Assembly: GCA_027858735.1 (NCBI GenBank)
Contig: JAQICC010000052.1
Coordinates: 1-53,590 of the forward strand
Length of the DNA stretch: 53,590 bases
From: Salinivirgaceae bacterium
GTDB lineage: Bacteria > Bacteroidota > Bacteroidia > Bacteroidales > SZUA-534
Direction of reading: 5' to 3'
In this document: positions 3,738 to 46,669 of the stretch, piece by piece
How positions within the stretch are numbered: the stretch's first letter is position 1
Layout of the letters: each line of letters opens with the position of its first letter
The notes under the pieces: model-generated
Told to the model about the DNA's origin: nothing
Seen by the model: the letters and a program-made list of their open reading frames with translations, nothing else
Database searches by the model: none
Made by a program: the position numbers and the translations under genes

Positions 3738-3745
3738 TATGTTTG
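3738..3745 (+). promoter_or_regulatory. Candidate -7 element of the giant protease gene
   Basis: TATGTTTG matches the Bacteroidota -7 consensus TAnnTTTG and lies about 70 bp upstream of the chosen start codon at 3817. No convincing TTTG -33 box is visible at the expected spacing, so this rests on the -7 element only. Confidence 0.3.
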
Positions 3746-3816
3746 ACACAATTAGCCCCGCTTTTAAATTAAACGGCAAAAATCTCATTATCAGAATCTT
3801 AAGCAAAACCAACATC

Positions 3817-23985: not shown

Positions 23986-24252
23986 ATGGAAAGAATTACT
24001 AAAAAAAATAGGGTTAGCTTGAAAATGCTAAATTTTAAGTACGGCGGATTTATTTTAAATAATATTGCATTATTTAATCTATCAGGTAAAGCTGTTTTCG
24101 AAAAAGACATTTTCATTTACTTATCAAAAAACTCCTTTTCTATTGAGTTACCTAAGCATATGAGCAACGACGATTTACTATTAACAGTATCGACAAGCTA
24201 TGGGCAATACAGCAAACTCATTAATCATTCAACCAAAACAATACAATTATGA
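23986..24252 (+). CDS. Orphan 88-residue T9SS-sorting-domain-like protein
   Basis: Small gene preceded by a strong GGAGG ribosome site (GGAGGTGTAAATG), rare in this window. The product has no signal peptide. From ~residue 22 it reads like the second half of a type A T9SS sorting domain: NNIALFNLSGKAVFEKD, NSFSIELPKHMS, LLLTVSTSYGQYSKLIN, matching the usual 'v.iydlsGk.v' and 'G.Y.v.v...g....k..' strands. The 'YPNP' motif is missing. Its stop overlaps an ATG in frame with the following GH81 gene (ATGA at 24249-24252). It may be a relic of a deleted secreted protein, or a true small coupled gene; without a signal peptide it cannot be an ordinary T9SS cargo. Confidence 0.55.
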   Translation: MERITKKNRVSLKMLNFKYGGFILNNIALFNLSGKAVFEKDIFIYLSKNSFSIELPKHMSNDDLLLTVSTSYGQYSKLINHSTKTIQL

Positions 24253-24338
24253 AACAGCACATGACTGAGATAAATGCTGTGACGAACGATTTGAAGAAGA
24301 ACGAACGCAATCTCAATATGCGCACAAATCTTAAAAGA

Positions 24339-28659: not shown

Positions 28660-31600
28660 ATGCAGAAAATTTACTTTAGTTTATTCATTTCATTAAGCTT
28701 ATTGCTTGTCAACAATTTGGCTTTTCCCCAAAGTACCATTCAAATGGGCAAAGCCAGTTATGCTGAATATGTACCCTTGTACGAAGCGGCAAATCCTTTT
28801 CTTGAAGGCCCGGAAAGCTGGGGCGACAAATCACAAGTAATGAAAACCAGACCTGTTTATGTTGTTGATACCAACACCCGTGCCATACCAACCAACGATT
28901 GGTGGACCGATTTAATATTTCATCAGTATGCAGGGAATATGTTTGCGCATCCATTAATGGTAAAGGCACAAAGCAATGGCATTTATGTAGAATTCCCTAC
29001 AAAATGGAACTACGATGGTACTTCGGTAGAATCGAACAGCTCTGTTAACATAAATGCAAGCAAGTTTACCGCAGTAGATGCTAAAGCACGCCGTTGGGGT
29101 GATTGGACCGTGGATTTTGTTCTGGAAAATGAACAACAAGATGCTAACATGGCCGTTACAATGGCCCATGGCATACCATTTGTTTGGGTGGAATATACCA
29201 ATCTTGAGGCCGAATTAAAATTTTCTGAAACCCCTACTTTTTTTAATAAAAATGGTACTGAAGTAAACCTTCCATACGCAAATAGTTATGTAGGCATTGA
29301 AGTTAATGGTGATACCTACGGTTTATTTCTACCTGAATTATCAATTATTGAAAAAGAAGGCGCCACATTTAAAGTAAGATTTAACAACCTCAACGCAGCT
29401 TTTATAGTTTTAGGTGCCCTTCCTAACAATGATCAACTCGAAAGTTTTTCGATGTATGCTTATGCTATACCTCGCGACAGCAAGGTAAGTTGGAATTACA
29501 ACGAAAACAAATCAGAACTAAAAACAACCTGGAATCTTACAACAGAAAACTTAAAAGGAGAAAGTTCTTTGCAAACCATTCAGGGCTGGATTCCTCATCA
29601 TTATAGGACAAGCAAAGTAAATTTCGATTTTACCGATGCTGAATACTTAACAGCACGCGGTAATATGAAATGTGCTATTGGAAATACTTTTGAAATCATC
29701 TTTCCATTTAATGGGCTTTTGCCGTATATGCCAGCGCCCGAACTAGAAAACGATGCCCTATATAGCAAAGACAAGTTAAAGCTAATGGTTAAGAACTATG
29801 CGGGCAAATCGGGCTATGGTGGCGATACTTATTGGGGTGGAAAAGACTTACTTTATTACAGCCAATACATGACCTTTGCTGAGCAATTGCAAGACACTCA
29901 ATCATTTAACATATTCAAAAACAAATTACACGAGAGCCTTAGTGACTGGTACACTTTTACACCGGGCGAACAAGAACATTATTTTGCCTACCATGAACGA
30001 TGGAAAACCTTGCTTGGTTTAAATGCATCCTACGGATCGGACGAGTTTAACGACCTGCATTTCCACTATGGTTACTTTGCCTATGCTTCGGGTATTTTAG
30101 CCATGTTTGATGATGAATTTAAACAAGATTTTGGCCCAATGGCCAAGCATGTGGTAAAGCAATATGCAAACTGGAACAGAGATAACACAGCTCCTTTCTT
30201 TCGCACCTTCGATATTTGGGAAGGTCACTCATGGGCAGGTGGTGTTGGTGATGCATGGAATGGTAACGGACAAGAATCAACTTCAGAAGCCATGCAAGGT
30301 TGGGGAGGTATGTACACTCTTGCATTATCATTAGATGACAAAGAAATGCGCGACGCTGCTATATTTGGTTATACCTTGGAATCGCTTGGAACTCAAGAAT
30401 ACTGGTTCGATCTTTCAAAAGAAAATATTGATTACACTAAGTATACGCGCCCATACAACAGCAACATTACCGGTCGTGGTATTGGTTGGTGGACTTGGTT
30501 TTCGGGTGATCCTGTTTGGATGCACTCCATCCAATGGTTACCTATTTCAACATCGTTAAAATACCTGTATCAGGATACTGAATTTGCTCGTTGGGATTAC
30601 ACCCAAATGTGGGAAAGCAAAGAAATAGGCGGCTGGGATACTGATTTAGGCAACGAAAGTGGATTAGGCAATGTTTTATTGAGTTACCTTCAAATATTCG
30701 ACGCCGATTCTGCTGCTCGTCTATTTAACACGCTTTGGGATAATAATAGTCCTACAGCTCGCGATAATTACACTGGTGGAATTTCATATTATTATACACA
30801 TGCACACCGTTATTTAGGCGAAATTCAATGGAATTTACATACAAATATTCCTTCTTCAACAGTTTATGTAAATCCAACAACAAACGATACTGCAGTTGTG
30901 GTTTACAATGCAAAAAATGAAGAACAACTATGTTCCGTTTTTGAAGGTTCCAATAAATTATATGAGATCAAAATTCCGTCTAAAAAGCTTACCGTACATA
31001 AGCTTAACGCGAAACTAACACAAATATCACTATCGGCAAGCAGCAAAACCATTGAACCCGGCAGTTCTATGCAAATTACAGCTACTGCTCTTGATCAATA
31101 CGGTGCTTCTATTAATACTTCTATAGCATTTACTGCAAGCGGGTCGGCTACTATTTCAAGCAGTGGTATGTTTAGTGCCTCACAAAAAGGTGACTATACC
31201 ATTACTGCAACATCAGGTTCAGTTTCATCATTGTTAAAAATGAGGGTAAATGATAAGCCTGTTTTGAGCAGTCTAAAGATCAACAATAGCGAATCATTCA
31301 TTCATATTGGTCAAACCCTTGTTTTATCCTACTCTGCATTCGATCAATACAACGACCCAATTGAAGGGAACATAGCATGGAGTATAGACAATGGTGGCAG
31401 TATTAACGAAAAAGGTGAATTTACAGCTGAAACCATTGGTGGCCCTTATACTATTACAGTAAGATCGGGTAAGGTATCAACCAGTATGCAAATTGAGGTG
31501 CGCTTGCCTCTCACCAATGTGGCATTCTTAAAAGAAGCGGCTTCATCATCAGAAGAAAATGTAGGCACACCTACTGAATACATTAACGATGGCGATTTAA

Positions 31601-33612
31601 CAACACGTTGGGCAAGTGGTTTTTCCGATCCTCAATGGCTTAGCATTGATTTAGGAAAAACTTACAATATTTCGTTAGTTAACCTTTATTGGGAAGCGTC
31701 ATTTGGTAAAAAATATGAAGTTTACATTACCAATGATATTTCAACATGGGAGAACCAAGAACCGTACCACACCAACAATAATAGCGATGGTGGCTTAGAT
31801 GCTATAAAAGCAAACACTTCAGGCAGGTATGTAATTCTAAAAGGTTTGGCTCGTGCCATGGAATATGGTTATTCATTATTCGAAATTGAAGTTTACGGCA
31901 CTCCATTGTCCGAAGGCGAATCGGTTTTAAGTGCTTTAAGTATTACACCTGAATGGGCTAGCATTATAGATAATGAAACTCTACAATACACAGCTGTTGG
32001 AATGGATCAATATGGTAAAGAAATGGCTACAAAACCAGAGTGGAGTGTTTTGGGTGCTGGTACTTTCGATGCTAAAGGTTTATTTACTCCTAGTGATGGC
32101 GGAATAATGAAGATTGTAGCATCGAAAGGTACGGTTTCTGCCAATGCCGATATTTATGTTGAAGAAAGCCCGAAGGTTGCTGCTATTAGCTTTACCGTTG
32201 ATTCAGATACCGCCAAACGCTTTCCTGTAATTATGGGAGTTGCCCATTCTTTTGAAGCAGATTGCTACGATCAATTTGGAGCTAATATTTTTGGCGAAAT
32301 TACCTGGACAGTATCAGGCGGTGGAACCATTGATAATAAGGGCTGGTTTATTGCTGAAACTACAGGTGATTATATGGTTTTTGCAAATTCTAACAAATTA
32401 ACCGATACTGCTTTCATTTCCATTAAAAACATTGCCGAAGTTGATGTTGCGCAAGGGAAACAGACGAAGGCCTCGTCAGCCGAAAACGATGGAACAGGTG
32501 CTGAGAATGCCGTTGATGGTAAATCGGATACCCGATGGAGTAGTAAATGGGAAGACCCTCAGTGGTTTGTTGTGGATTTAGAAAACACCTATGAAATATA
32601 TAAAATACGAATAAATTGGGAAGGTGCCTTTGGTAAAGCTTACAAGATACAATTCTCTAAAAATGAAGTTGATTGGTCTACCGTTTATTCCAAAGGCAAC
32701 AGCGATGGTGGCGAAGACCTAATTGAAGTAACTGGAGAAGCCAAATTTGTTAAATTTTTGGGGACAGAACGTGCTACTGACTATGGATATTCTTTCTTTG
32801 ATTTTGAGGTGTATGCTTCGGGTATAGTGATTGAAAATCCGATATTGAGCAATATTTCTATTAGTCCAAACAATGCATTATTAGTACCAGGTGACAGCTT
32901 GCTGTTTACGGCCAAATGTACCGACCAATTCGGAACAAAATTTGATGCAACACCTGTTTGGAATGTAGAGGGCAATAATACCATTAACCAAACAGGTTTG
33001 TTTGTTGCCGGTTCCGAAGAAGGCAGCTATTTGCTTACAGCTTCGTTTGACACAATTGTAAGCAGCGTAATAGTAAATATAAGTGCCGATGCAAGTATTG
33101 CCAGCATTAGTCTAAGCCCTGAAGATTTACTTATTAAATCCGGAGAATCCATCCAGTATAGTGCTGAAGCCTTTGATGAAAATCAAAACTTTATTGAAAC
33201 CGATTTCGATTGGAGTGCAAATGGCGGAGGAACAATAAGTGAGGATGGTTTATTCTTATCGGATTCAACACCAGGCAGTTTCACTATTTTTGCAAGTATT
33301 GGCGCTAAGGTTCAATCAACAACTGTAACAGTTGAAGGTTCAAACTCAGGAACCATTATTGAAGCAAAATCAAAAACAACAATTCAATTGTATCCAAATC
33401 CGGCACGCGACTATGTACATATTGAAATCACGAGCAGTGAATTGTTTTATGAGCTTCAAATAATAGACTTGTTTGGTACAGTTCACTTCAAAAAACATGA
33501 CCAATCAAAGCATTTACAAATAGCCACCAATAATTTACCTAAAGGCCTGTACATCATTGAAATTAAGCAAACTAATATAACATCGTACTCTAAATTCATT
33601 ATTAACAAATAA
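28660..33612 (+). CDS. Secreted GH81 endo-beta-1,3-glucanase with Ig-like and discoidin modules
   Basis: 1,650 residues. Signal peptide 1-24 (SLSLLLVNNLAFPQS). GH81 domain ~25-785: RAIPTNDWWTDLI, YGGDTYWGGKDL, D465 (FNDLHFHYGY), E539 and E543 (GNGQESTSEAMQGW). The tail alternates Ig-like BIG2-type domains (ITATALDQYGASI, LSYSAFDQYNDPI, etc.) with two discoidin domains (TRWASGFSDPQWLSIDLG and TRWSSKWEDPQWFVVDL), then a T9SS domain (LYPNPARDY). A clear paralogue of the preceding GH81, but without the insertion in its beta-sandwich and with different tail modules. Only 12 bp separate it from the next, giant gene, so they share a transcript. Confidence 0.94.
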   Translation: MQKIYFSLFISLSLLLVNNLAFPQSTIQMGKASYAEYVPLYEAANPFLEGPESWGDKSQVMKTRPVYVVDTNTRAIPTNDWWTDLIFHQYAGNMFAHPLMVKAQSNGIYVEFPTKWNYDGTSVESNSSVNINASKFTAVDAKARRWGDWTVDFVLENEQQDANMAVTMAHGIPFVWVEYTNLEAELKFSETPTFFNKNGTEVNLPYANSYVGIEVNGDTYGLFLPELSIIEKEGATFKVRFNNLNAAFIVLGALPNNDQLESFSMYAYAIPRDSKVSWNYNENKSELKTTWNLTTENLKGESSLQTIQGWIPHHYRTSKVNFDFTDAEYLTARGNMKCAIGNTFEIIFPFNGLLPYMPAPELENDALYSKDKLKLMVKNYAGKSGYGGDTYWGGKDLLYYSQYMTFAEQLQDTQSFNIFKNKLHESLSDWYTFTPGEQEHYFAYHERWKTLLGLNASYGSDEFNDLHFHYGYFAYASGILAMFDDEFKQDFGPMAKHVVKQYANWNRDNTAPFFRTFDIWEGHSWAGGVGDAWNGNGQESTSEAMQGWGGMYTLALSLDDKEMRDAAIFGYTLESLGTQEYWFDLSKENIDYTKYTRPYNSNITGRGIGWWTWFSGDPVWMHSIQWLPISTSLKYLYQDTEFARWDYTQMWESKEIGGWDTDLGNESGLGNVLLSYLQIFDADSAARLFNTLWDNNSPTARDNYTGGISYYYTHAHRYLGEIQWNLHTNIPSSTVYVNPTTNDTAVVVYNAKNEEQLCSVFEGSNKLYEIKIPSKKLTVHKLNAKLTQISLSASSKTIEPGSSMQITATALDQYGASINTSIAFTASGSATISSSGMFSASQKGDYTITATSGSVSSLLKMRVNDKPVLSSLKINNSESFIHIGQTLVLSYSAFDQYNDPIEGNIAWSIDNGGSINEKGEFTAETIGGPYTITVRSGKVSTSMQIEVRLPLTNVAFLKEAASSSEENVGTPTEYINDGDLTTRWASGFSDPQWLSIDLGKTYNISLVNLYWEASFGKKYEVYITNDISTWENQEPYHTNNNSDGGLDAIKANTSGRYVILKGLARAMEYGYSLFEIEVYGTPLSEGESVLSALSITPEWASIIDNETLQYTAVGMDQYGKEMATKPEWSVLGAGTFDAKGLFTPSDGGIMKIVASKGTVSANADIYVEESPKVAAISFTVDSDTAKRFPVIMGVAHSFEADCYDQFGANIFGEITWTVSGGGTIDNKGWFIAETTGDYMVFANSNKLTDTAFISIKNIAEVDVAQGKQTKASSAENDGTGAENAVDGKSDTRWSSKWEDPQWFVVDLENTYEIYKIRINWEGAFGKAYKIQFSKNEVDWSTVYSKGNSDGGEDLIEVTGEAKFVKFLGTERATDYGYSFFDFEVYASGIVIENPILSNISISPNNALLVPGDSLLFTAKCTDQFGTKFDATPVWNVEGNNTINQTGLFVAGSEEGSYLLTASFDTIVSSVIVNISADASIASISLSPEDLLIKSGESIQYSAEAFDENQNFIETDFDWSANGGGTISEDGLFLSDSTPGSFTIFASIGAKVQSTTVTVEGSNSGTIIEAKSKTTIQLYPNPARDYVHIEITSSELFYELQIIDLFGTVHFKKHDQSKHLQIATNNLPKGLYIIEIKQTNITSYSKFIINK

Positions 33613-33624
33613 CTATTAGAAATT

Positions 33625-36600
33625 ATGAAAAAACAACTACAAAAAGTTTTTATGCTTCTTGTTTTTCTTTCCCTTTGTTGGGGAAATTCAGCAATTGGGC
33701 AAACACTTGTATCGGCCACTGCATCTTCGGGAACTGCAAGCTTGGCCATTGATGGAAATAACGCAACCCGCTGGGAAAGTGCTTCTTCCGACCCTCAATG
33801 GATTGTGATTGAACTCGACAAAGAGTATACACTTTCACGCATTGTTATTGACTGGGAAGGAGCAAATGCCAAAGATTATACCATCGATATTTCAAATGAT
33901 GGTACAAGCTGGACAACAATATCAACCCAAACCAACATGCCGAACATGGCTAGAACCGATGATTTAACAATCAGTGGAGATGCTTCGTATGTAAGAGTGT
34001 ACGGAACAGCGCGAAACTTAACTTATGGATATTCAATTTGGGAACTTGAATTATACGGTAGTCCGGTTGGACAGGTAAGTACCCTTACATCTATTGGACT
34101 TACAGCTGATAAAACCAGATTACCAATTAATAGCGATGCCACTATTACAGCCATTGGTTACGACCAAGATGGTTATGCTATGGCAACAAGCCCAACATGG
34201 TCTACTTCAGGAGGCACCGTTGCTTCAGGAGTATTTGCTGCAACTACGGCGGGCGTTTATACCATTACAGCTACCGATGGGGCTATATCAAACACCATTG
34301 ATATAACAGTAACCGAACCAGAATTAACATTCACATCAGCTTCAGCATCAGATGGAGCTGCTGCTGGTGCTATTGATAAGAACTACGGCAGCATGTGGGT
34401 TGGAGATGGAAATTCACATCAGTGGATATATGGAGATTTAGGTTCTTTAACTTACGTAACTGATCTCAGTGTTTACTGGGAAGGTGCATGTGCAACCAAA
34501 TATGGGGTTGATATTTCAGCTGATGGAAGTATTTGGCAAAATATTGATTCTTTGTTAAATGGGGCTCCAGAAGGCCGTACCGATAACTTTATTACGAATG
34601 CAAGTGCTCGTTATATAAGAATACACTCTATTGTTCCACGCGATTCTGCTTGGGGCTATAAAATATGGGAGATGGTTGCCTACGGCGCTGTAAATGGAGC
34701 AATTACTGTAAATTCCATTAATATAAGCTCTGATGCAACAAGCGTTCCTGCCAATGCTGATCTACAACTCTCACTTGAAGGATTCGATGGTAGCTCAAAT
34801 CCATATGCAGTAGACCCCACATGGAATGTAAGTCCTACAACAGGTTCAGTTGATGCCGATGGAAATTTTTCAGCAACAGCTGCAGGAACATATACGGTCT
34901 CAGTATCTGAAGGCGGTGTAACAAGTAATTCATTAAGCATTACTGCAACTTCTGCTCAAGTTTTAGGAAGTGTGGTGGTTTCACCATCAACAGCTAATGT
35001 AATAATTGGCAACGATTACCAATTTAGCGCTCAGGCTTACGATGAAGACGGTTTAACCATGCCAACATCAGTTACTTGGAGTGTAAATGGCGGGGGTACC
35101 ATTGATACCGATGGCTTGTTTAGCGCAACTACCTTAGGCGATTACACTGTTACTGCATCACAAAGTGGAATAGACGGTACAGCAACAGCTACCGTAAAAC
35201 CAGAAAATGTGGCAGTTGGAAAAACAGCCCTAGCTTCATCTGCTATTCAAACTGCTGCCTGGGCTATTGATGGTTTGGCAGGAACGCGTTGGGAAAGTGC
35301 TATTGGTGATCCTCAATGGATTTATATTGATTTAGGAGCCACCTATACACTATCGGATTTTATTTTGAATTGGGAAGGTGCAAATGCTGAAGATTATACA
35401 CTTTCTATTTCGGGTGACGCTTCAAATTGGCAAACTATTTATACTGCTACCGGAATGGCGGCAGGAGCAAGAATTGATTATATTACTGAAGCAGCATCAG
35501 CTCGCTATGTAAGAATGCATGGTACAGCACGTACTATCCCTTATGGATATTCTTTATATGAATTTGAAACTTTAGGTGTTGCAAACACATCTTCATTAGC
35601 TTCATTAACTGTTGGTGCTGATGCTACAACCATTAATATAACCGAATCTGTTCCATTATATTCAAATGGTTTTGATGCAAGCGCCGATCCCTATGCTACA
35701 GCTCCAACATGGACTGTAAATAGCACCGATGCTATAGTTTCAACGGATGGTATTTTTACCAGCGATATTGAAGGTACATACACGGTAACTGCAACAGATG
35801 GTGCGGTTTCAAATACTATTGATATTCAAGTAAAAGGACCCGAATTAACGACTATTACAATTTCGCCCGATCCTGCTAATGTTGATGCGGGTACTACACA
35901 GCAATTTACTGCAACCGGCTACGATCAGTTTAGCAATGAAATTGCAGCTACATTTTCTTATGCAGTTGATGGTGGAGGAACTGTAAACTCAAGTGGTTTA
36001 TTTAGTGCTACAACTATTGGCGATTATATTTTAACCGTGAACGAAGGGGCAATTTCCGTTACAGCCAATATTACGGTACTTCCAGGTAATATTGCTGTAG
36101 GCAATACTGTTACAGCCTCACCTGCAGCAGTTCAAAGCGCTGCTAATGCAGTTGATGGGGATGCAAATACTGCCTGGGAATGTGCTGCTGCCGATTCGCA
36201 ATATATTTATGTTGATTTAGCAGCTGTTAAATTACTTTCTAAAGTTAAACTTAACTGGGGTGCAGAATCAGCAAAATCATACACCTTGGCAATTTCTGCC
36301 GATGGTACAAGCTGGCATACATTACACCAAGAGGCTAACAATGCTGTAGGTGCAAGTATTAGCATTATTCCTTTTGAAGCTTGCGCTCAATATGTACGCT
36401 TATTGGTACGTGCTAAAAATGGTACAATTGGTATTCTTTTGAATGAATTTGAAATATACGGACAAGACTTACCTGCCGGTAAAGTACTTACAACACTTAA
36501 TGTTGTTTCGCCTAAAACAGTTGTTCAGGTGGCTAAAGACCTTCAAATTGAAGCTCATGGTTTTGATCAGGATGATGTACCATTTGCTACTGCACCAACA

Positions 36601-39600
36601 TGGTCAGTTGATCCGGTAGAGGCTACCATTTCAGTCAGTGGTATATTTAATGCATCAGCAGTTAATGTGTATACGGTTACTGCTAACGATGGTGGTATTC
36701 AAAATACCATTAACATAACCTCTGAAACTAATGCACGTTTAAACAGAGTTGATGTAACCCCAAAAAACAACTCTGTAAACATTGGGCAAACAATTGATTA
36801 TTCGGTACAAGGTTATGATCAATTTGAAGAAGAATATGTAGCAGGCTATGATTGGTCAACAAGTGGTGGTGGAAGCATTGATGCTAATGGATTATTTTCT
36901 GCGAGCTCCCTTGGAACACATTTTATTACGGCTACTTCTACAAGCGTTTCTCCAACTACTGGCAATTTATCAGGATTAACTGAGATATATGTAATTCAGG
37001 AAAACCTTGCTTTAAGCGGAACTGCATCAGCTAGTAGTGAAATTACAGCCGCATCAAATGCCATAGATAATGATATTATAAGCTACTGGGAAAGTAATGC
37101 TACTGATGATGAAAACATTACTGTTAATTTAGGCACTATGCTTTATTTGTCTCAGGCTAATTTAAATTGGCTATCAGGTGCATTAGACTATGATATTGAA
37201 ATATCAGCCGATGGTTTAAACTGGGTTACCATTTCGGAACAAATAGGCAAGGTTGATGAACTGCGTCTAGACGAAATTAACTTGGTTGCAACAGCAAAAC
37301 ACGTTCGTGTTACAGGTATTTCAAGAAATGGAACCGCCGGTTATAAATTGAATGAATTCCAGGTATTGGGTGAAACCATTCCGGCCGGAAAAGCTTTAGC
37401 AACTATAGTTTTACAAGCAGAAGCCACTACCCTATTTGTTGGCGACGAAACTCAAATTACCGTTTCAGGTACTGATGGTGATGCGGAAGCATTTGCCGTT
37501 GCTCCTACTTATACAAGTACGGGTGGAACAGTATCAACCAATGGAGTATTTACATCGACAACAGCCGGCACATTTACCATTACAGCTACCGATGGTACTA
37601 TTAGCAACACCATTGAAATAACTGTTCAGGCTTTACCTGCTTTAACAACTATTAACTTAACACCTACAGTAGCAAGTATTCAAGTTACTGATACCATTAA
37701 CTTTGTAGCCAAAGGTTTAGACCAATATAGCGATTCAATTGGCATTACTCCTGCTTATAGCACAACTGGTGGCGGTACTATAAACAATGATGGACAATTT
37801 GTAGCAACAAGTGAAGGGGTATTTACCATCACCGTTGAATCAAATGGTATATCAACACAAAGTACAGTTACCATTGTACCTGAAAACCTTGTGTTAAATA
37901 AAGCAATTACGGCTTCATCAGAAGTTCAGCCTGCAAGCAATGCAGTTGATGGTAATTCAGCTTCCCGTTGGGAAAGTGCCCAAACCGATCCTCAATGGAT
38001 TGTGATGGATATGGGTGCTATGCATAAAGTTACTGATGTTATTATCAACTGGGAAGCTGCAAATGCTGAAAACTATACCCTTGATATTTCGGCTGATAAT
38101 AGCAATTGGCAAACAATCGTTAAGCAACAAAATATGACTGAGGGTGCAAGAATCGATTCTATTGATCAAGTAGCATCGGCTCAATATTTGAGAGTTCTTG
38201 GTACAGAACGTACTATTCCTTACGGATACTCTATATTTGAGGTTACCGTTCGTGGTGAAGATTTACCGGGAACTGTAGCACTTAATTCTATGGAGGTTTT
38301 ATTCAACAATGAAATTGCAAAAGTAAATGCACCAATACAATTTATAGCAAATGGTTTTGATGCAGATGACAATCCTTTTGCATTTGCTCCAATCTGGACA
38401 GTAAATAATTCTGATGCTTCTATTAGCACTACAGGTATGTTTACTGCTACAGCAGAAGGTACATTTACAGTTACTGCAACTCAAGGGGCTATTAACAAAA
38501 CGGTTGATATTGAAGTTAGAGCCGCATCGGTTATTTCAACCATAACAATCGATCCTCAAGATCAAGCCATTCGCGTTGGCGATTCAATTCAGTATTCAGC
38601 AATTGCTGTTGACCAATACGATGATACCGTTTCTGTTGATTTAACATGGACATCTAACGGTGGAGGTATTATTGATACTCTTGGAATGTTCAGAGCGAAT
38701 GAAATTGGAAACTTTACAATTTCTGCAAGCACAAGTGATGTAGCAGGTAGCTCAAATGTGAAAGTGTCAAGAGCAAGTCTTGCTAAAAACAAATCTATAA
38801 CAGCTTCATCTGAAGTAACTGAAGCAAGTCTGGCAGTTGATGGTAATTTAACTACACGCTGGGAAAGTGAAGCTAGCGAGCTACAGTGGATTGTGATTGA
38901 CCTTGGTGCAATAAGTTACATTGATAGTGTAAGTATTAATTGGGAAGGAGCATCGGCTAAGAACTATTCGGTACAAATTTCAAATGATAATTTATACTGG
39001 CAATCGGCTTACGAAGCTATTGATAAAGAGGTTGGACCACGTGTTGATAACATCGTTAAAAACATGACAACCCAGTACCTGAAAATTTCTTGTACTGAAC
39101 GTAATACTAATTTTGGTTACTCCATTTACGAAACCGATGTTTATGGTGGTAATGCTCTTGATAGCTTACATGTGGCTTCTATAGCAGTATCAGCAGCAAG
39201 AGACACCGTTCCGGTTACTTATGAACTTCAATTAAACATTGCAGGTTTCGATCAAAATAGTAATCCATTTGCTGTAACTCCTGTTTGGTCTGTTGATAAA
39301 ACAACAGGTTCTGTTTCATCTGAAGGTTTATTCTCAGGCACTGAAATTGGTGACTATGTAATAACTGCAACAGTAGGTACCACAACCAATACATTTAATG
39401 TATATGTAGCGGAACCATCGGTATTGCAAACCCTTGAAATAACGTCTGCAATTGCTTCGCTAAGAGTTGCAAGAACGGCACAATTTGAAGTAGTGGGAAT
39501 TGACCAATACGATCTTGAAATGAAAACAAATGTGGCTTGGGCAACAACTGGTGGTGGAACTATTGATTCTACCGGATTATTTTTAGCTACAACAGAAGGA

Positions 39601-42327
39601 AGCTATATTATTTCTGCAACACAAGACACCATTTCAGCAACTGCGGCGGTGAATGTGTTACCTGAAAACTTGGCTTACGGTAAAACTACAATAGCATCAA
39701 GTGCGGTACAAAGTGCAATATTTGCAAATGATGACGATGTAACAACTCGTTGGGAAAGTTCTGTAGGTGAAGCACAGTGGTTAACCATTGACTTTAATGA
39801 CACTTCACTTATTAAGAGCCTGATTCTTAATTGGGAAACTGCAAATGCTAAAGTGTACAGCATCGACATTTCTGCGGATAATCTTAACTGGCAAACAATT
39901 GCAACTCAAGTAAACATGGCAGCCGGTGTTCGTATCGACACGATACCAATGTACTCTTCAGCACGTTACTTTAGAGTAAATGGATTAGAACGCAATACCG
40001 AATTTGGTTATTCATTATTCGAGGTTGAAGCTTATGGCGATAAACACAGTTCAGCTGTGCTTAACTCAGTGCTTATATCATCTCCTAAAATGGAAATTGT
40101 AGCAAAGTCTTCATTGCAACTTTCTGCAAACGGATTTGATGTTAACTCAAACCCAATTGCCTTCGCTCCTATTTGGGGTGTGATTGGTGCTGATTCACTA
40201 ATTAATACAAGTGGTTTATTTACACCCGTTAAAGAAGGTGACTATTTAATTACTGCATTCAATGGTACTTTAGCTGATACACTTACAATTTCCGTAGTTG
40301 CAGCTCCGGTACTAAAATCAATTACAGTTACTCCAGTTGAACAAACAGTAAACATTGGCAGCGCAATTCAGTTCGCTGCTCAAGGTTTTGATACCAATGG
40401 TGACACTTTAAATGTTGATTATGCATGGACAGTGACAGGTGGTGGAGAAATAACTCAAACCGGATTATTTGCTGCCGATTCAATTGGTGAGTTTACCGTT
40501 CAAGCAAAAGCTGACACCATAGTGGGTACAACAGTGTTTACTGTTATTCCTGAAAATGTAGCATTAAATAGACCTATTGGAGCAACATCAGAAGTTCAGC
40601 CAGCATCAAATGCGAATGATGGTGATGCTGCAACATTTTGGGAATCAGAAGACACAAGTCCGCAATCAATTGTTGTTGACTTTGAAGAAATGTTTAACTT
40701 CTCAGCAGTCAATCTATTATGGACTGGTATTCCAAGTGCATATGAGATTGCCATTTCAGCTGATTCAATTTACTGGCAAACTATTTCATCCATTATTACA
40801 AAAGGCACTAAATCAGGTTATAATTCAAGTGCCCGTTTTGTTAAAGTAACCATGTTAGACAAATCGTTTGAAGGCGGTTACAAGCTTAACACTTTTGATA
40901 TACTTGGTGAAAAAGTTAGCTCGGCAGCAGTGCTTGATTCAATTGCTATTTTGGCTGATACCAATGTTATTTCAACAGCTGAAACCTTACAATTCGTTGT
41001 TGAAGGATTTGATGCCTTTAAAATGCCCTTCGCATTTACTCCTGCATGGAGTGTTACCAACGGAGGTTCAATTACAGAAACCGGAGCTTTCTCAGCATCG
41101 TTACCGGGTACTTATTTAGTAAAAGCCAGCAGTGGAAGTATTGAAGATAGCATCTCAATTATTGTAAACGGAAGTGTATTAACTTCAATAAAAGTTAGTC
41201 CTGCCGATACAAGTATTACTTTAGGCAGTAACATTCAATATAATGCACAAGCTTACGATCAGTCTAATGTGGCAATTGAGGCCGATATTTTATGGAGTAT
41301 TGACGGCGGAGGAACCATAGATACTACTGGCCTATTTATTCCAACAGAGTTAGGCACCTTTATCATTACTGCTGCCTCAAGCAGTGTATCGCCAACTACA
41401 GTTGATATATTTGGTACTGCAAGTGTTACCGTATTTAAAGAAAATCTTGCACTGAATAAAACAATTGAGGCATCAAGCGAAGAATGGCCTGCAATGAATG
41501 CCAACGATGGCGACACTACAACATACTGGGAAAGTACTAGCGATGCTAACCAATGGATAAGCATTGATTTTGCAAAAACTTATACATTCAACAACTTCAT
41601 GTTGTACTGGGAGGCAAATTCAGCTTCATCGTATGCCATAGCTATTTCAGCAGATGAGCAAAACTGGCAAACCATTCTTAGCAATTCAGACATGACTGAA
41701 GGCAAACGTATTGACACTCTTAATACAATTGTTTCAGCTCAGTTTATTAGAGTTAAAGGCTTAGATAAAGTTGCTAATGCCGGTTACCAAATAGCTGAAA
41801 TTGAAGCTTATGGACAAGATGTTTCGGATGATAAAGTTTTATCAACCCTAACTGTTGTTGCTGATGAAACTACAATTAATTCAGGAAGCTCATTACAGCT
41901 TGAAGCACACGGTTTTGATCAAGATGAAATGCCATTTGCAGCTATTCCTGTATGGAATGTTGATAATGATGGACTGATTTCAGGTGATGGAAAATTCACG
42001 GCAACAACTGCCGGAACTTATACTGTTACAGCTAGCAGCAATGGTATTACAGGAACCTTTAGCATAGTAGTTGAAGGCACAGATGTTAACCAATTGTTAG
42101 ACGGAGCGGTATATGTATACGCTTCGAAAAGTGCAATTTATATTAAGAATATAGACTTGAACGAGTTTAGTAATGTTAAAGTTTACAATTCAAACGGTAG
42201 CCTAATTAAGGTTATCGATACCAATTCTGAAACTCTGGAGATTTCAACAGCCGAAATGCAACCTGGAATTTATATTGTTTCGTTATGTGGAAATAGTATA
42301 GTTAATAATAGTGTAGTAGTTGAGTAG
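33625..42327 (+). CDS. Giant non-catalytic repeat protein: ten discoidin and about eighteen Ig-like modules
   Basis: 2,900 residues with no recognisable enzyme domain. Signal peptide 1-25 (FLSLCWGNSAIGQ). The body holds ten discoidin (F5/8 C, CBM32-like) domains, marked by 'RWES...DPQWI.IDLG...NWE.ANA..Y...IS', starting near residues 26, 233, 528, 822, 1125, 1419, 1717, 2013, 2310 and 2606. Each middle one is followed by two Ig-like domains ('GFD....PFA..PTWSV...G..S..G.FTA...GTYTVTA'), giving a ~890-bp repeat; the first and last have one. Some copies are decayed at the consensus tryptophan or arginine (MWVG, FWES). The end (~2820-2900) resembles a T9SS domain but lacks YPNP. Likely a surface multivalent glucan binder, adhesin or scaffold; this role is inference. 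Confidence 0.9.
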   Translation: MKKQLQKVFMLLVFLSLCWGNSAIGQTLVSATASSGTASLAIDGNNATRWESASSDPQWIVIELDKEYTLSRIVIDWEGANAKDYTIDISNDGTSWTTISTQTNMPNMARTDDLTISGDASYVRVYGTARNLTYGYSIWELELYGSPVGQVSTLTSIGLTADKTRLPINSDATITAIGYDQDGYAMATSPTWSTSGGTVASGVFAATTAGVYTITATDGAISNTIDITVTEPELTFTSASASDGAAAGAIDKNYGSMWVGDGNSHQWIYGDLGSLTYVTDLSVYWEGACATKYGVDISADGSIWQNIDSLLNGAPEGRTDNFITNASARYIRIHSIVPRDSAWGYKIWEMVAYGAVNGAITVNSINISSDATSVPANADLQLSLEGFDGSSNPYAVDPTWNVSPTTGSVDADGNFSATAAGTYTVSVSEGGVTSNSLSITATSAQVLGSVVVSPSTANVIIGNDYQFSAQAYDEDGLTMPTSVTWSVNGGGTIDTDGLFSATTLGDYTVTASQSGIDGTATATVKPENVAVGKTALASSAIQTAAWAIDGLAGTRWESAIGDPQWIYIDLGATYTLSDFILNWEGANAEDYTLSISGDASNWQTIYTATGMAAGARIDYITEAASARYVRMHGTARTIPYGYSLYEFETLGVANTSSLASLTVGADATTINITESVPLYSNGFDASADPYATAPTWTVNSTDAIVSTDGIFTSDIEGTYTVTATDGAVSNTIDIQVKGPELTTITISPDPANVDAGTTQQFTATGYDQFSNEIAATFSYAVDGGGTVNSSGLFSATTIGDYILTVNEGAISVTANITVLPGNIAVGNTVTASPAAVQSAANAVDGDANTAWECAAADSQYIYVDLAAVKLLSKVKLNWGAESAKSYTLAISADGTSWHTLHQEANNAVGASISIIPFEACAQYVRLLVRAKNGTIGILLNEFEIYGQDLPAGKVLTTLNVVSPKTVVQVAKDLQIEAHGFDQDDVPFATAPTWSVDPVEATISVSGIFNASAVNVYTVTANDGGIQNTINITSETNARLNRVDVTPKNNSVNIGQTIDYSVQGYDQFEEEYVAGYDWSTSGGGSIDANGLFSASSLGTHFITATSTSVSPTTGNLSGLTEIYVIQENLALSGTASASSEITAASNAIDNDIISYWESNATDDENITVNLGTMLYLSQANLNWLSGALDYDIEISADGLNWVTISEQIGKVDELRLDEINLVATAKHVRVTGISRNGTAGYKLNEFQVLGETIPAGKALATIVLQAEATTLFVGDETQITVSGTDGDAEAFAVAPTYTSTGGTVSTNGVFTSTTAGTFTITATDGTISNTIEITVQALPALTTINLTPTVASIQVTDTINFVAKGLDQYSDSIGITPAYSTTGGGTINNDGQFVATSEGVFTITVESNGISTQSTVTIVPENLVLNKAITASSEVQPASNAVDGNSASRWESAQTDPQWIVMDMGAMHKVTDVIINWEAANAENYTLDISADNSNWQTIVKQQNMTEGARIDSIDQVASAQYLRVLGTERTIPYGYSIFEVTVRGEDLPGTVALNSMEVLFNNEIAKVNAPIQFIANGFDADDNPFAFAPIWTVNNSDASISTTGMFTATAEGTFTVTATQGAINKTVDIEVRAASVISTITIDPQDQAIRVGDSIQYSAIAVDQYDDTVSVDLTWTSNGGGIIDTLGMFRANEIGNFTISASTSDVAGSSNVKVSRASLAKNKSITASSEVTEASLAVDGNLTTRWESEASELQWIVIDLGAISYIDSVSINWEGASAKNYSVQISNDNLYWQSAYEAIDKEVGPRVDNIVKNMTTQYLKISCTERNTNFGYSIYETDVYGGNALDSLHVASIAVSAARDTVPVTYELQLNIAGFDQNSNPFAVTPVWSVDKTTGSVSSEGLFSGTEIGDYVITATVGTTTNTFNVYVAEPSVLQTLEITSAIASLRVARTAQFEVVGIDQYDLEMKTNVAWATTGGGTIDSTGLFLATTEGSYIISATQDTISATAAVNVLPENLAYGKTTIASSAVQSAIFANDDDVTTRWESSVGEAQWLTIDFNDTSLIKSLILNWETANAKVYSIDISADNLNWQTIATQVNMAAGVRIDTIPMYSSARYFRVNGLERNTEFGYSLFEVEAYGDKHSSAVLNSVLISSPKMEIVAKSSLQLSANGFDVNSNPIAFAPIWGVIGADSLINTSGLFTPVKEGDYLITAFNGTLADTLTISVVAAPVLKSITVTPVEQTVNIGSAIQFAAQGFDTNGDTLNVDYAWTVTGGGEITQTGLFAADSIGEFTVQAKADTIVGTTVFTVIPENVALNRPIGATSEVQPASNANDGDAATFWESEDTSPQSIVVDFEEMFNFSAVNLLWTGIPSAYEIAISADSIYWQTISSIITKGTKSGYNSSARFVKVTMLDKSFEGGYKLNTFDILGEKVSSAAVLDSIAILADTNVISTAETLQFVVEGFDAFKMPFAFTPAWSVTNGGSITETGAFSASLPGTYLVKASSGSIEDSISIIVNGSVLTSIKVSPADTSITLGSNIQYNAQAYDQSNVAIEADILWSIDGGGTIDTTGLFIPTELGTFIITAASSSVSPTTVDIFGTASVTVFKENLALNKTIEASSEEWPAMNANDGDTTTYWESTSDANQWISIDFAKTYTFNNFMLYWEANSASSYAIAISADEQNWQTILSNSDMTEGKRIDTLNTIVSAQFIRVKGLDKVANAGYQIAEIEAYGQDVSDDKVLSTLTVVADETTINSGSSLQLEAHGFDQDEMPFAAIPVWNVDNDGLISGDGKFTATTAGTYTVTASSNGITGTFSIVVEGTDVNQLLDGAVYVYASKSAIYIKNIDLNEFSNVKVYNSNGSLIKVIDTNSETLEISTAEMQPGIYIVSLCGNSIVNNSVVVE

Positions 42328-42335
42328 TAATTTTT

Positions 42336-42368
42336 AGGGGAGACAGCAGCAGCTGTCTCCCCTTTACT
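42336..42368 (+). terminator. Terminator after the giant repeat protein
   Basis: Perfect 12-bp GC-rich stem AGGGGAGACAGC (42336-42347) / GCTGTCTCCCCT (42352-42363), loop AGCA, then TTTACT. Begins 8 bp after the stop codon. Two smaller inverted repeats follow before the next gene: AGACC/GGTCT (42388-42402) and the palindrome AACCCTATAGGGTT (42429-42442). Confidence 0.8.
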
Positions 42369-42467
42369 ATTTCGAAATTATAAGTATAGACCAGACAGGT
42401 CTTTACAACAAATCGGATGAAAAAGCAAAACCCTATAGGGTTCCAATAACTAATTAAATATATCATA

Positions 42468-44867
42468 ATGAAAATTAAAATCACACTAATTGCCTTTTTT
42501 GCGACATTAATGCTTCAATCATCTGCTCAAGACTATAAGTTGGTTTGGGAAGATAACTTTGATGGAGAAAAGCTTGATACCAAGACATGGTCTGTTGAAT
42601 CTGAAGTAGGCATATGGAATACCGGATCGAACAGTGAACTTCAGCATTACAAGCATGAGAATGTAGAGGTTGGCGATGATGGAGATGGCAATAACTGTCT
42701 TATTATAACAGCAAAAAAAGAAGAATATAACGGTTACGGTTTTACCTCAGGAAAAATTGAATCGAAAGGAAAATTCACTTTTAAATTTGGTAAAATGGAA
42801 GCTCGAATAAAAATACCCGATTTAAAAAATGGCTTATGGCCAGCTTTCTGGACCATTGGGCATAAAGATATGGGTTGGCCTCAGTGCGGCGAAATTGATA
42901 TTCTTGAGATGGGACATGCCGATGGCATTGCTGCAAGTACACAAAACAAACATCACAGTGGTGCTTTGCATTGGGAACATGCCGACAACTATGCTGGTTA
43001 TGGTCGTGCTGAAGAATCTGAAGTTGATTTAAATAATGATTTTCACTTATTCACTTTAATATGGACTGAAACTACTGTTCAAATGTTTTTAGATGACAAT
43101 ACTGAACCGTATTATATAATGGGCATTTCAGGCGACGATTTAGAAGAGTTCAAAGAATACCAAATGTTTTTGATTTTCAATTTGGCTGTTGGTGGCCAAT
43201 TTCCTGGCATTTATGATGCGGCTGACCTTACAGCACCTTTGCCTGCTAAAATGTATGTTGACTATGTTAAGCTATACCAGCTAGAGGGAAAAGAAGATTT
43301 CACAACGACAGCTCCTGTTATTGGGAACTTTGGAGCTTATGCAGAAACGAGTTCGAATTACCAAAAGCTTGATTTTAACTTCGATGGTGAAATTGAAACA
43401 TCAAATTTAACTAAAAATAATAATGAAACTCCCAAAGAAGGAACTCAGGTACTTGCATACAATACAATTGCGAATGAAGAATTTACGCTAAAAGTTAGAT
43501 CTATCTCTTCATTAAATATGACCAACCAATCTGAAGGTGGAATCAGTCTTTATATAAAAACAAATATTTCAGAAGATATTCAAATAGGAATTGCTGATAC
43601 AGATGGCAATAGCAGTTTTGTATTACTAAGTGAAAGTGGCAGTTTCAATCCTTCAAGAGACGATGTATGGAGCAGAATTACACTACCCATGGAACATTTT
43701 GCAGGTTCTGTTGATTTAACAAAAATTAAAGACTTTTTAATCGTTAAAGGTAGCTCTGCAAATTCTAGCAAGCTATCTATTGACAATGTTATATGGATGG
43801 AAAGTATATTAAGTGCTGATTACTTAGGCATTTTTACAGAAAATACTAACATTACCGAAAATGTAATTATAGGTGAAAACTCTGTATCGCTATATATTTG
43901 GGAAAACTCGCTTGCTACGCTCGATAATGTAACCCCTTTCGAAGGTGCCGGCACACTAGCTTTTAGCGACAATGGTATGGGATGGTACGGATTTGGAATT
44001 TTTTCGGAAAATGGTATTGATGCAACAGCTTTTCAAAACGGATATTTAATTTTCACCTTAAAAACTAAATCGAACTCTAATTTTTGGATAGGTATTGGAG
44101 GGACCAATCAAACAGAAGGTAAAATAGTATTTAACAAGGGTACCGATCCTTATAACTTTGAACGAAATGGTGAATACCAAACTCTGGTTATTCCAATTTC
44201 GGATTTTAACGATAACTGCATTGCAACCATAGAAAAAGATTTAGATTTATCGGCCTGTGGAAATATATTAATGTTTGGAGGTGATAGTGGTTTAACAGAA
44301 ATTTCAATTGATGATGTTTATTTATCAAAAACAGAAACACCCTTAGAGAATCCCTTAATTCTTGAATTAACTACCCTACAGATAAGTCCGAAAAATAAAA
44401 CCATAGCTATTGGCGAGAGTATACAGCTATATGCTAAGGGTTTAGATCAATTTGATGGAACCATCGACATTGAACCGGAATGGTCATCAGATAATGATGG
44501 TTTTATAACTGAGGCGGGTGAATTTGTTGGAGTAACAGTCGGAACCTTTTCAATAACAGCCAAATACGAAGACATAATGGGTACAACTTCGGTTGAAGTA
44601 ATTGAGGCAACTTCGGCAAAACAAAACAGTAATACTACTTTTATGGTCTATCCAAACCCAGCTCACAACCAAATTACCTTTGAAAGTAAAGAACCTATTG
44701 CATCTATTCAAATATTTGATGTTACAGGCAAACTAGTTCATTCTCAAAATTGCTTATTTGAATTAAAAACTACGATGCAAGTAGGTGATTTAACAAAAGG
44801 TATTTACATTGCTAATATTCTATTAAAAGGAGGCAATACAATGCTTAACAAATTTATATTAAACTAA
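42468..44867 (+). CDS. Secreted GH16 laminarinase-type endo-beta-1,3-glucanase
   Basis: 799 residues. Signal peptide 1-20 (ITLIAFFATLMLQSSAQ). GH16 domain ~22-270 with the catalytic signature GEIDILEMG (nucleophile E142, D144, acid/base E147; the beta-bulge form typical of laminarinases), W-rich subsites LWPAFWTIG, HHSGALHWEH, and DDNTEPYY. Next are two beta-sandwich regions, ~290-445 and ~450-625 (FNFDGEIETSN; ISIDDVYLSK), that resemble carbohydrate-binding modules of the CBM4/9/11 type but are not assignable, then an Ig-like BIG2 domain ~630-710 and a T9SS domain (VYPNPAHNQI). Hydrolyses beta-1,3 (or mixed-linkage) glucan outside the cell. 44 bp upstream of the GH128 gene. Confidence 0.94.
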   Translation: MKIKITLIAFFATLMLQSSAQDYKLVWEDNFDGEKLDTKTWSVESEVGIWNTGSNSELQHYKHENVEVGDDGDGNNCLIITAKKEEYNGYGFTSGKIESKGKFTFKFGKMEARIKIPDLKNGLWPAFWTIGHKDMGWPQCGEIDILEMGHADGIAASTQNKHHSGALHWEHADNYAGYGRAEESEVDLNNDFHLFTLIWTETTVQMFLDDNTEPYYIMGISGDDLEEFKEYQMFLIFNLAVGGQFPGIYDAADLTAPLPAKMYVDYVKLYQLEGKEDFTTTAPVIGNFGAYAETSSNYQKLDFNFDGEIETSNLTKNNNETPKEGTQVLAYNTIANEEFTLKVRSISSLNMTNQSEGGISLYIKTNISEDIQIGIADTDGNSSFVLLSESGSFNPSRDDVWSRITLPMEHFAGSVDLTKIKDFLIVKGSSANSSKLSIDNVIWMESILSADYLGIFTENTNITENVIIGENSVSLYIWENSLATLDNVTPFEGAGTLAFSDNGMGWYGFGIFSENGIDATAFQNGYLIFTLKTKSNSNFWIGIGGTNQTEGKIVFNKGTDPYNFERNGEYQTLVIPISDFNDNCIATIEKDLDLSACGNILMFGGDSGLTEISIDDVYLSKTETPLENPLILELTTLQISPKNKTIAIGESIQLYAKGLDQFDGTIDIEPEWSSDNDGFITEAGEFVGVTVGTFSITAKYEDIMGTTSVEVIEATSAKQNSNTTFMVYPNPAHNQITFESKEPIASIQIFDVTGKLVHSQNCLFELKTTMQVGDLTKGIYIANILLKGGNTMLNKFILN

Positions 44868-44911: not shown

Positions 44912-46669
44912 ATGAAAACCACGCTACTATTATTACTTATTACCTTAACAACAATTGTAGGCTCATCTCAAACAAAAAGTTTTAAAAGAGGCATTTGTGG
45001 GGATACTTCACCAGAAGATTTGGCAATATTATCACCCTATATAAGCTGGTACTACGATTGGGGAGTTGAACCACCTGCAATATCACAAGGAGAATTATCG
45101 GGCATTGAATGGGTGCCCATGCAATGGGGAGGGATTGGTGCCGACCAAGTTGAAAATATTAAATCAAGAATTATTGAAGGTAGTTTATATTTGCTTGGTT
45201 TTAATGAACCAAACTTTAGAAGTCAAGCCAATATTACACCACAACAAGCTGCCGAAATGTGGCCATATATTGAAGAAATTGCTGCCGACAAAGGATTAAA
45301 ATTAGTAAGTCCGGCAGTAAACTGGTGCGGCGATTGCGTTGATGGTGTTACTTATGATCCTACTGATTGGCTCGATAAATTTATTGCAGCTTATCCCGAT
45401 GCCCATTTCGACTATATAGCCATTCATAGTTATGCCCCCTATTCTGCAGCTTTAAAAAGCTATATTGATATGTTTCGGAAATACAACAAACCTCTTTGGA
45501 TAACTGAATTTGCACCATGGGATGCTCCAAAACCTGATTATGCAGGCGTTGTTCAATATATGAAAGAAACTATTCCTCTTGTAGAGGCCGACACCAGTGT
45601 TTTTCGCTATTCGTGGTTTGCAACGCGTGTAAGTTCAAATCCCGATATTGATTTATTGGGTGCCAATGGGGAATTAACAAAACTGGGTAAACTTTATGCC
45701 ACAATGCCTTTTGAAGGTTCATCTATTGATAATATTGATCCTATTGCCTTTCTTCCAAGTGAGAAAAATATTAATTTACCTACAACTAAAGTCGTAATTC
45801 CCGGCAATACTTATTATCCAAACGAAGATGAATTAAGCATCGAATGGTCTCAAATTTCAGGCCCTAGTCAAGCTACTTTTAATGATTTAAGCATTGCAAA
45901 GCCAACTATTTCAGATTTAGAACTTGGAACTTATGTATTTCAAATGACTGTAAATGCCAATGCCAAATCTGACAATGCTCAAATAACCGTAGTAGTAAAT
46001 GGGGAAAATATTGCAAAACACAAACCTGCTAAATCTTCAAGCAATCAGGATGGTAATCCCCCCTCAAATGTAAATGATGGAAATCTAAGCACACGATGGT
46101 CTTCTCTGGATTCAGACCCTCAGTGGATTGAAATTGATTTGGAAGGCACTTACCATTTAACAGGTACCAAAATAGAATGGGAAACTGCCTATGCAAAAGT
46201 TTACTCTATTGATATATCAAAAGACGGTGATAATTGGACTTCTGTTTATGAGACCTCAAGTGGCGAGGGTGGATCTGCCGGTTTCTCTTTTAATGATACT
46301 GCAAACTATATTAGAATGTACTCAACCCAGCGAAATACTCAAGAACAATGGTGGGGTAATTCAATTTGGGAGTTTGAAGTTTATGGAAGTGAGATTGAGA
46401 CTAGTTTAATTGAAAGCTTATCTCAGAATCAACATTTCAATATCTTTCCTAATCCTGCAACTAATTTAATAACTATTAAAACATCTGAACTCCATGGGCA
46501 AGCAAAACTTAATATTTTTGACAGTTGCGGCAGAATGATTTTTGTGCAACAAAACAATCTGGACAAAAGCATTAATACTATTGACATAAGTTTTTTACAA
46601 ACAGGAATTTACCTAATTACAATTAGCAATAAAGCAGGTATTTACAAGCAACATTTTATTAAAAAATAA
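44912..46669 (+). CDS. Secreted GH128 endo-beta-1,3-glucanase
   Basis: 585 residues. Signal peptide 1-20 (LLLLLITLTTIVGSSQ). Residues ~22-270 are a GH128 (Glyco_hydro_cc) TIM barrel: KRGICGDTSPED start, acid/base E99 in LLGFNEPNFRSQANITPQQ, nucleophile E199 in LWITEFAPWD, and FRYSWFATR. This family cleaves beta-1,3-glucans. Then a K319/PKD-like Ig domain ~275-370 (IEWSQISGPSQATFNDL), one discoidin domain ~371-495 (TRWSSLDSDPQWIEIDL), closely similar to those in the GH81 and giant proteins, and a T9SS domain (IFPNPATNLI...). Last gene of the glucanase cluster, followed by a terminator. Confidence 0.93.
   Translation: MKTTLLLLLITLTTIVGSSQTKSFKRGICGDTSPEDLAILSPYISWYYDWGVEPPAISQGELSGIEWVPMQWGGIGADQVENIKSRIIEGSLYLLGFNEPNFRSQANITPQQAAEMWPYIEEIAADKGLKLVSPAVNWCGDCVDGVTYDPTDWLDKFIAAYPDAHFDYIAIHSYAPYSAALKSYIDMFRKYNKPLWITEFAPWDAPKPDYAGVVQYMKETIPLVEADTSVFRYSWFATRVSSNPDIDLLGANGELTKLGKLYATMPFEGSSIDNIDPIAFLPSEKNINLPTTKVVIPGNTYYPNEDELSIEWSQISGPSQATFNDLSIAKPTISDLELGTYVFQMTVNANAKSDNAQITVVVNGENIAKHKPAKSSSNQDGNPPSNVNDGNLSTRWSSLDSDPQWIEIDLEGTYHLTGTKIEWETAYAKVYSIDISKDGDNWTSVYETSSGEGGSAGFSFNDTANYIRMYSTQRNTQEQWWGNSIWEFEVYGSEIETSLIESLSQNQHFNIFPNPATNLITIKTSELHGQAKLNIFDSCGRMIFVQQNNLDKSINTIDISFLQTGIYLITISNKAGIYKQHFIKK

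Follow-up and report, generated by a model that had tools for sequence, protein, structure and literature searches.

Secreted proteins made up of carbohydrate-binding modules have been described in Saccharophagus degradans, in which Cbm32A (Sde 0478) is a "CBM only" protein with tandem CBM32 modules; its locus number is close to that of the CBM32-GH3 enzyme Gly3D (Sde 0475), and both were found in the culture supernatant (PMC2386152). In Paenibacillus, the discoidin (DS) module of the beta-1,3-glucanase LamA binds laminarin, lichenan, Avicel cellulose and chitin, and helps the enzyme against fungi (PMC2789033). Two further CBM32 modules, DD1 and DD2, are carried by the chitosanase/glucanase of Paenibacillus sp. 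IK-5 (4zxe, 4zz5, 2rv9), and it is DD2, which has Tyr36, to which polysaccharides generally bind (PMC12154041). Among the type A substrates of the type IX secretion system (T9SS) is the RemA-type lectin adhesin of Flavobacterium johnsoniae, which displays a sugar-binding domain on the cell surface (PMC12618676).

The protein analyzed here, P (2900 aa), is encoded by an intact open reading frame at 33625-42327 on the forward strand of a 53,590-nt window, the whole stretch of DNA that was analyzed, from a Salinivirgaceae bacterium. Like Cbm32A, P has tandem CBM32 modules and no catalytic domain, and lies beside glucan enzymes. However, Cbm32A has two CBM32 modules, has no DS-Ig-Ig array and is not reported as a T9SS substrate, whereas P has ten CBM32-type DS modules. 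The sequence-only reading of this DNA had not known the arrangement as a described system. That novelty is weakened, because secreted CBM-only proteins with tandem CBM32 were already described in S. degradans (PMC2386152). What is unusual in P with respect to those proteins is its size, the regular array, the probable T9SS route and the altered sites. P shares family and fold with DD1/DD2, but it carries ten modules on an enzyme-free chain where DD1/DD2 are two modules on an enzyme. With LamA it shares a discoidin module tied to beta-1,3-glucan breakdown, as well as the W-R-W stability triad of that module (PMC2789033), intact in most, not all, of the P copies; LamA has a single module on a GH16 enzyme and its binding was measured, whereas P is known here from its sequence. 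Finally, the tail of RemA was among the fold matches of the P tail, but RemA has a different lectin domain and is tied to gliding, not to glucanases (PMC12618676).

Organization of the Locus

P is preceded by two GH81 genes on the same strand. GH81a (24249-28574) encodes a GH81 domain with three DS, a CBM6 and a T9SS tail, and GH81b (28660-33612) has the order GH81-Ig-Ig-DS-Ig-Ig-DS-Ig-Ig-T9SS tail, Ig being an immunoglobulin-like domain. GH81a, GH81b and P lie head to tail with gaps of 85 and 12 bp. The 12-bp distance between P and a GH81 gene had been noticed before, and it agrees with the GH81b stop at 33612 and the P start at 33625. Downstream on the forward strand, a hairpin whose 12-bp stem is perfectly paired (42336-42363), present as a single copy in the window, begins eight bases past the P stop; the folding energy of positions 42325-42390 is -27.5 kcal/mol (z -6.5). 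The GH81-GH81-P unit probably ends, or is attenuated, at this hairpin; since the stem is followed by a weak T tract, the hairpin may attenuate transcription rather than stop it. The 12-bp gap upstream of P and the strong hairpin directly after its stop point to P as probably the last gene of a GH81-GH81-DS/Ig transcription unit, and co-transcription of P with the two GH81 genes is very probable. Next on the same strand come a GH16 enzyme (42468-44867) with one Ig of the P type and a T9SS tail, and a GH128-type (Glyco_hydro_cc) enzyme (44912-46669) with one DS and a T9SS tail. Thus, DS of the family found in P are also present on GH81a, GH81b and the GH128 enzyme, and P-type Ig on GH81b and the GH16 enzyme.

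A Reg_prop/Y_Y_Y/helix-turn-helix regulator is encoded upstream of the operon (20838-23738, forward strand), and its putative link to P is one of position. Bacteroidota-type promoter patterns were matched three times in the window, with 4.6 expected by chance, and none of the matches lay upstream of the operon. No adjacent SusC/SusD pair was found among the window proteins scanned.

Domain Plan and Age of the Array

In the Pfam scan, P matched PF00754 (F5/8-C) in ten stretches with 532 bits (cut-off 28.2) and also Big_2-type Ig domains, the two families anticipated from the sequence, and no catalytic family was detected over the whole 2900 aa, as had been proposed. A profile trained on P itself gave exactly 10 DS and 18 Ig (domain E < 1e-24 each), which turned the earlier count of ten discoidin and about eighteen Ig domains into an exact one. 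The module order is DS-Ig, eight times DS-Ig-Ig, DS-Ig, and then a putative, divergent T9SS sorting domain. The strict DS-Ig-Ig plan claimed previously is therefore real for units 2-9, but it begins with unit 2, not with the third unit, and units 1 and 10 are DS-Ig.

Each unit opens with its DS. Unit 1 (33712-34335) contains DS1 (33712-34059) and one Ig, and it is followed by the DS-Ig-Ig units 2 (34336-35229), 3 (35230-36114), 4 (36115-37026), 5 (37027-37908), 6 (37909-38799), 7 (38800-39690), 8 (39691-40578) and 9 (40579-41466); unit 10 (41467-42072) again combines a DS (DS10, 41467-41814) with one Ig. The DS starts are spaced by 624, 894, 885, 912, 882, 891, 891, 888 and 888 bp. Additionally, the second Igs of units 4 and 9, which sit just before DS5 and DS10, have a 7-residue insertion in common (SPTTGNLSG and SPTTVDIFG, respectively) that is absent from the other units.

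The mean identity within P was 38% among DS, 37% among first Igs and 36% among second Igs; a first and a second Ig shared 29% on average. Hence, there are two Ig subtypes, strictly alternating within the units, and the best BLAST matches of the first Igs were mostly other first Igs. No preferred offset was observed between best-matching copies. Because the units are uniformly about 37% identical in protein and lack such an offset, a recent tandem DNA duplication was ruled out. The internal repeat of ~890 bp that had been reported exists at the protein level but does not reflect recent copying of DNA; judged from these identities, the array is old and long maintained, and the DNA periodicity is an echo of the protein repeat. 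A tree of 93 DS placed P DS2-DS10 in one clade (97/83) with DS1 outside it, and many other forks were unresolved. A direct descent of the P modules from the GH81b tail was also considered; it is unsupported in this tree, where the GH81b DS fall elsewhere.

Fold of the Modules and Putative Sugar Site

The fragment DS6-Ig-Ig-DS7, that is, unit 6 together with DS7, was modeled with AlphaFold with a mean pLDDT of 93, the relative orientation of the domains being unreliable (pTM 0.60). The modeled DS superimposed on the CBM32 modules 4zxe and 4zz5 with a TM score of 0.88, an rmsd of 1.3-1.5 Å and 38-40% identity, and these Paenibacillus chitosanase/glucanase chains were also the best sequence matches of the P DS. 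The Ig pair of the model matched Leptospira LigA in structure comparison. By profile and predicted fold, the DS of P are CBM32-type F5/8-C modules with the discoidin beta-sandwich.

The DS of P and 44 enzyme-borne DS were aligned to DD1/DD2 in order to compare the site at which sugar would bind. Arg31, Glu61 and position 36 are presumably the sugar contacts in the DD1/DD2 structures. The pair formed by the Arg of the TRW motif and the Glu of NWE was complete in 42 of the 44 enzyme-borne modules and in half of those of P (5/10; Fisher p 0.0014), and an aromatic residue (W/F/Y) occupied loop position 36 in 25 of the 44 and in none of the ten (p 0.001), although the modules are mutually related and both p-values thus overstate the evidence. 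In P, the full pair is present in DS1, DS3, DS6, DS7 and DS8; the Arg is lost in DS2 and DS10, and both residues are lost in DS4, DS5 and DS9. Compared with DD1/DD2, then, half of the P modules lack the Arg31/Glu61 equivalents and all of them lack the aromatic at position 36. Two other enzyme-free DS/Ig proteins, one from the same genome (L047) and one from another genome (L088, G048), had the complete pair in 0 of 5 DS, so that the ligand may differ.

The sequence-only reading had taken the modules of P to be of the same kind as those of the neighboring enzymes. This is correct for the DS family and the Ig type, and it is weakened at the presumed sugar site. Since the P modules differ there, it is unsafe to conclude from the same modules to the same glucan: a family shared with the modules of neighboring enzymes does not assign the same ligand. 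About half of the DS of P probably bind little and serve as spacers, or bind something else.

Export

P starts with a predicted Sec-type signal peptide of about 26 aa (33625-33702), recognized by eye in the translation, and a lipobox was not seen, also by eye, so that a lipoprotein signal like that of SusE/F is missing. P is not a SusE/F-type protein. At the other end, a putative, divergent T9SS C-terminal sorting domain was located at 42097-42324. It scored below the curated cut-offs of Pfam (21.2 bits, cut-off 27) and NCBIfam (18.2 bits, cut-off 23). A held-out profile, made from six further T9SS tails encoded in the window with the P tail excluded, gave 23.9 bits, and the best of 2000 shuffles gave 10.6. 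The tail was modeled with seven strands, and its PDB matches, individually weak (best E 2e-3), included the T9SS C-terminal domains of RgpB, mirolase, RemA, RemZ and NucA. The T9SS machinery is represented in the genome by SprA (SprA_N, 531.9 bits). The earlier description of P as a secreted protein is thereby supported, as a prediction. Because type A tails in Flavobacterium lead either to static surface anchoring or to release (PMC12618676), P could be surface-bound or shed.

Relatives in Other Genomes

No other repeated DS-Ig-Ig array was found with a profile of the unit in samples of 393 genomes of the order, 395 of the class and 395 of the phylum, which partly overlap and in which few candidates per genome were scored; no orthologue of P was found in these samples either. 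GH81 was present in 19 of the 393 genomes of the order sample. The best outside match of a P unit was the tail of a GH81 enzyme from the same order (L087, genome G166), with 196 bits compared with 437 for the self match. This protein of 2051 aa, GH81-Ig-Ig-DS-Ig-Ig-DS-Ig-DS-DS-tail, resembles P in DS/Ig order and carries a T9SS tail, but its modules are fused to the enzyme. In Cerasicoccus, DS modules were also detected on GH81 and GH3 enzymes, and in Paenibacillus and Cohnella on GH81 enzymes.

Smaller DS/Ig proteins with a T9SS tail and no recognized enzyme were found at three places. One of 603 aa (L088) is encoded about 660 bp upstream of a GH81 gene in genome G048, and one of 903 aa (L134) lies beside a Reg_prop regulator in genome G166. 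The third, of 1543 aa, is encoded on contig C188 of the same genome as P (L047:7251-11879); it also contains a long stretch of CFAP65-like Ig, and whereas the copies of P have diverged, its DS1 and DS2 are nearly the same in sequence. Reg_prop/Y_Y_Y/helix-turn-helix regulators thus occur near enzyme-free DS/Ig genes in two genomes, in the window (20838-23738) and at L134:2828-5800. Additionally, proteins of one locus (L076, genome G114) have one N-terminal DS and no recognized enzyme.

Several other candidates were discarded as enzyme-free proteins. The Cerasicoccus neighbor in L001 and L002, considered as a second enzyme-free partner of GH81, holds a GH3 domain; at both loci a GH81-DS enzyme is directly followed by a DS-rich GH3 enzyme, a layout reminiscent of S. 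degradans Gly3D. The neighbor in Paenibacillus kobensis (L008) is a GH16 enzyme, another candidate (L004) is a GH18 enzyme, and the 4-DS proteins of G498 carry a GSDH domain. Two minor observations concern the records themselves. Two records, L017 and L028, carry nearly identical DS under the names Rhodococcus rhodnii and Kibdelosporangium philippinense, by recent transfer or through a mislabeled record, and one GH81 frame of G048 (L083, contig C56) is interrupted by a single TAG.

Proposed Function of P

With a little more confidence than doubt, we propose that P is a T9SS-exported, multivalent polysaccharide-binding strand of the cell surface that brings together the cell, glucan and the co-expressed glucanases. 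After export by type IX secretion, P would be held at the cell surface or slowly shed from it, as a long beads-on-a-string strand in which Ig pairs space the CBM32-type DS. Each DS would bind polysaccharide weakly, and, as several weak sites in a row can give avidity, the sites in series would hold long or insoluble beta-glucan. The strand would keep cell, substrate and the co-expressed GH81 glucanases near each other, the enzymes themselves not being bound by P. Surface attachment, glucan as the ligand and avidity are what we infer from the features described above. The linkage to GH81, together with a GH81 enzyme tail as the nearest relative, makes beta-glucan the likeliest ligand of the five canonical DS.

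The binding partner could also lie elsewhere. CBM32 is a family with broad ligands, and P might be an adhesin whose DS bind a glycan that is not the target of the enzymes (for example exopolysaccharide of the cell itself, a surface glycan of a host or alga, or several different glycans), the linkage to GH81 then meaning shared regulation only. The altered presumed site in half of the modules, the missing loop aromatic in all ten and the absence of complete sites from the two other enzyme-free DS/Ig proteins speak for this explanation. Nevertheless, the 12-bp linkage and shared end hairpin with GH81, the GH81 enzyme tail as nearest outside relative and the enzyme-type Arg+Glu pair in five copies speak against it, and we regard it as rather unlikely. 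A further view, which we hold to be improbable, is that enzyme-free DS/Ig arrays form a functional class of their own with a re-tooled CBM32 site and that P is possibly a two-ended bridge and not simply a multivalent binder of glucan; for example, glucan could be bound by DS1, 3, 6, 7 and 8, and a polymer of the cell surface by DS2, 4, 5, 9 and 10.

How P would be placed with respect to cell and enzymes can also be read differently. It might be released into the medium or a biofilm matrix and coat or cross-link glucan there. Type A tails permit release as well as anchoring (PMC12618676), S. degradans Cbm32A is found in the supernatant (PMC2386152), and cross-linking of glucans has been proposed for multivalent CBMs (PMC11039641); nonetheless, we consider an unanchored P unlikely. 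Less probable still is a cohesin-free scaffold that binds the GH81, GH16 and GH128 enzymes at the surface through Ig-Ig or DS-DS contacts. P resembles cellulosomal scaffoldins in being large, enzyme-free and adjacent to glycoside hydrolases, the Ig and DS types are common to P and the neighboring enzymes, and one Paenibacillus DS formed some dimer in vitro (PMC2789033). However, that dimer amounted to ~15% of one isolated domain, which is weak support. In contrast to scaffoldins and their partners, P has no cohesin and the enzymes have no dockerins; neither domain was found in the whole genome, P has no protein-docking domain, and there is no known docking pair. Moreover, each of the two GH81, the GH16 and the GH128 enzymes carries a T9SS tail itself and thus does not require a scaffold to reach the surface. 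The idea of P as a scaffold holding enzymes, put forward from the sequence, accordingly lacks support.

Should the surface strand that we favor bind glucan with avidity, P would represent a large, naturally occurring multivalent binder of beta-glucan, exported by type IX secretion and co-expressed with GH81, and a cell-attached alternative to Sus-type binding lipoproteins. Its ten diverged CBM32 modules would also be a ready series for mapping specificity.

Glucanases and Related Proteins of the Genome

The genome encodes five GH81 domains and one GH64, and no GH18 was found in it. Neither GH81 nor a comparable DS/Ig array was present in the 19 family relatives examined, and the GH81/GH64 set without GH18 is a lineage-specific beta-1,3-glucan specialization. 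Since GH18 is absent from the genome, a dedicated role against fungal walls (chitin plus glucan) is less likely than the use of storage or algal-type glucan.

Additionally, contig C314 of this genome encodes a T9SS protein of 1829 aa (L048:2507-7993) with eight tandem Ig of the P type and Big_7 domains, in which no recognized enzyme or binding module was found. The window itself contains, at 3739-12927, a 3062-aa protease of the subtilisin family (S8) whose Ig domains are HYDIN/CFA65-like and which also has a T9SS tail.
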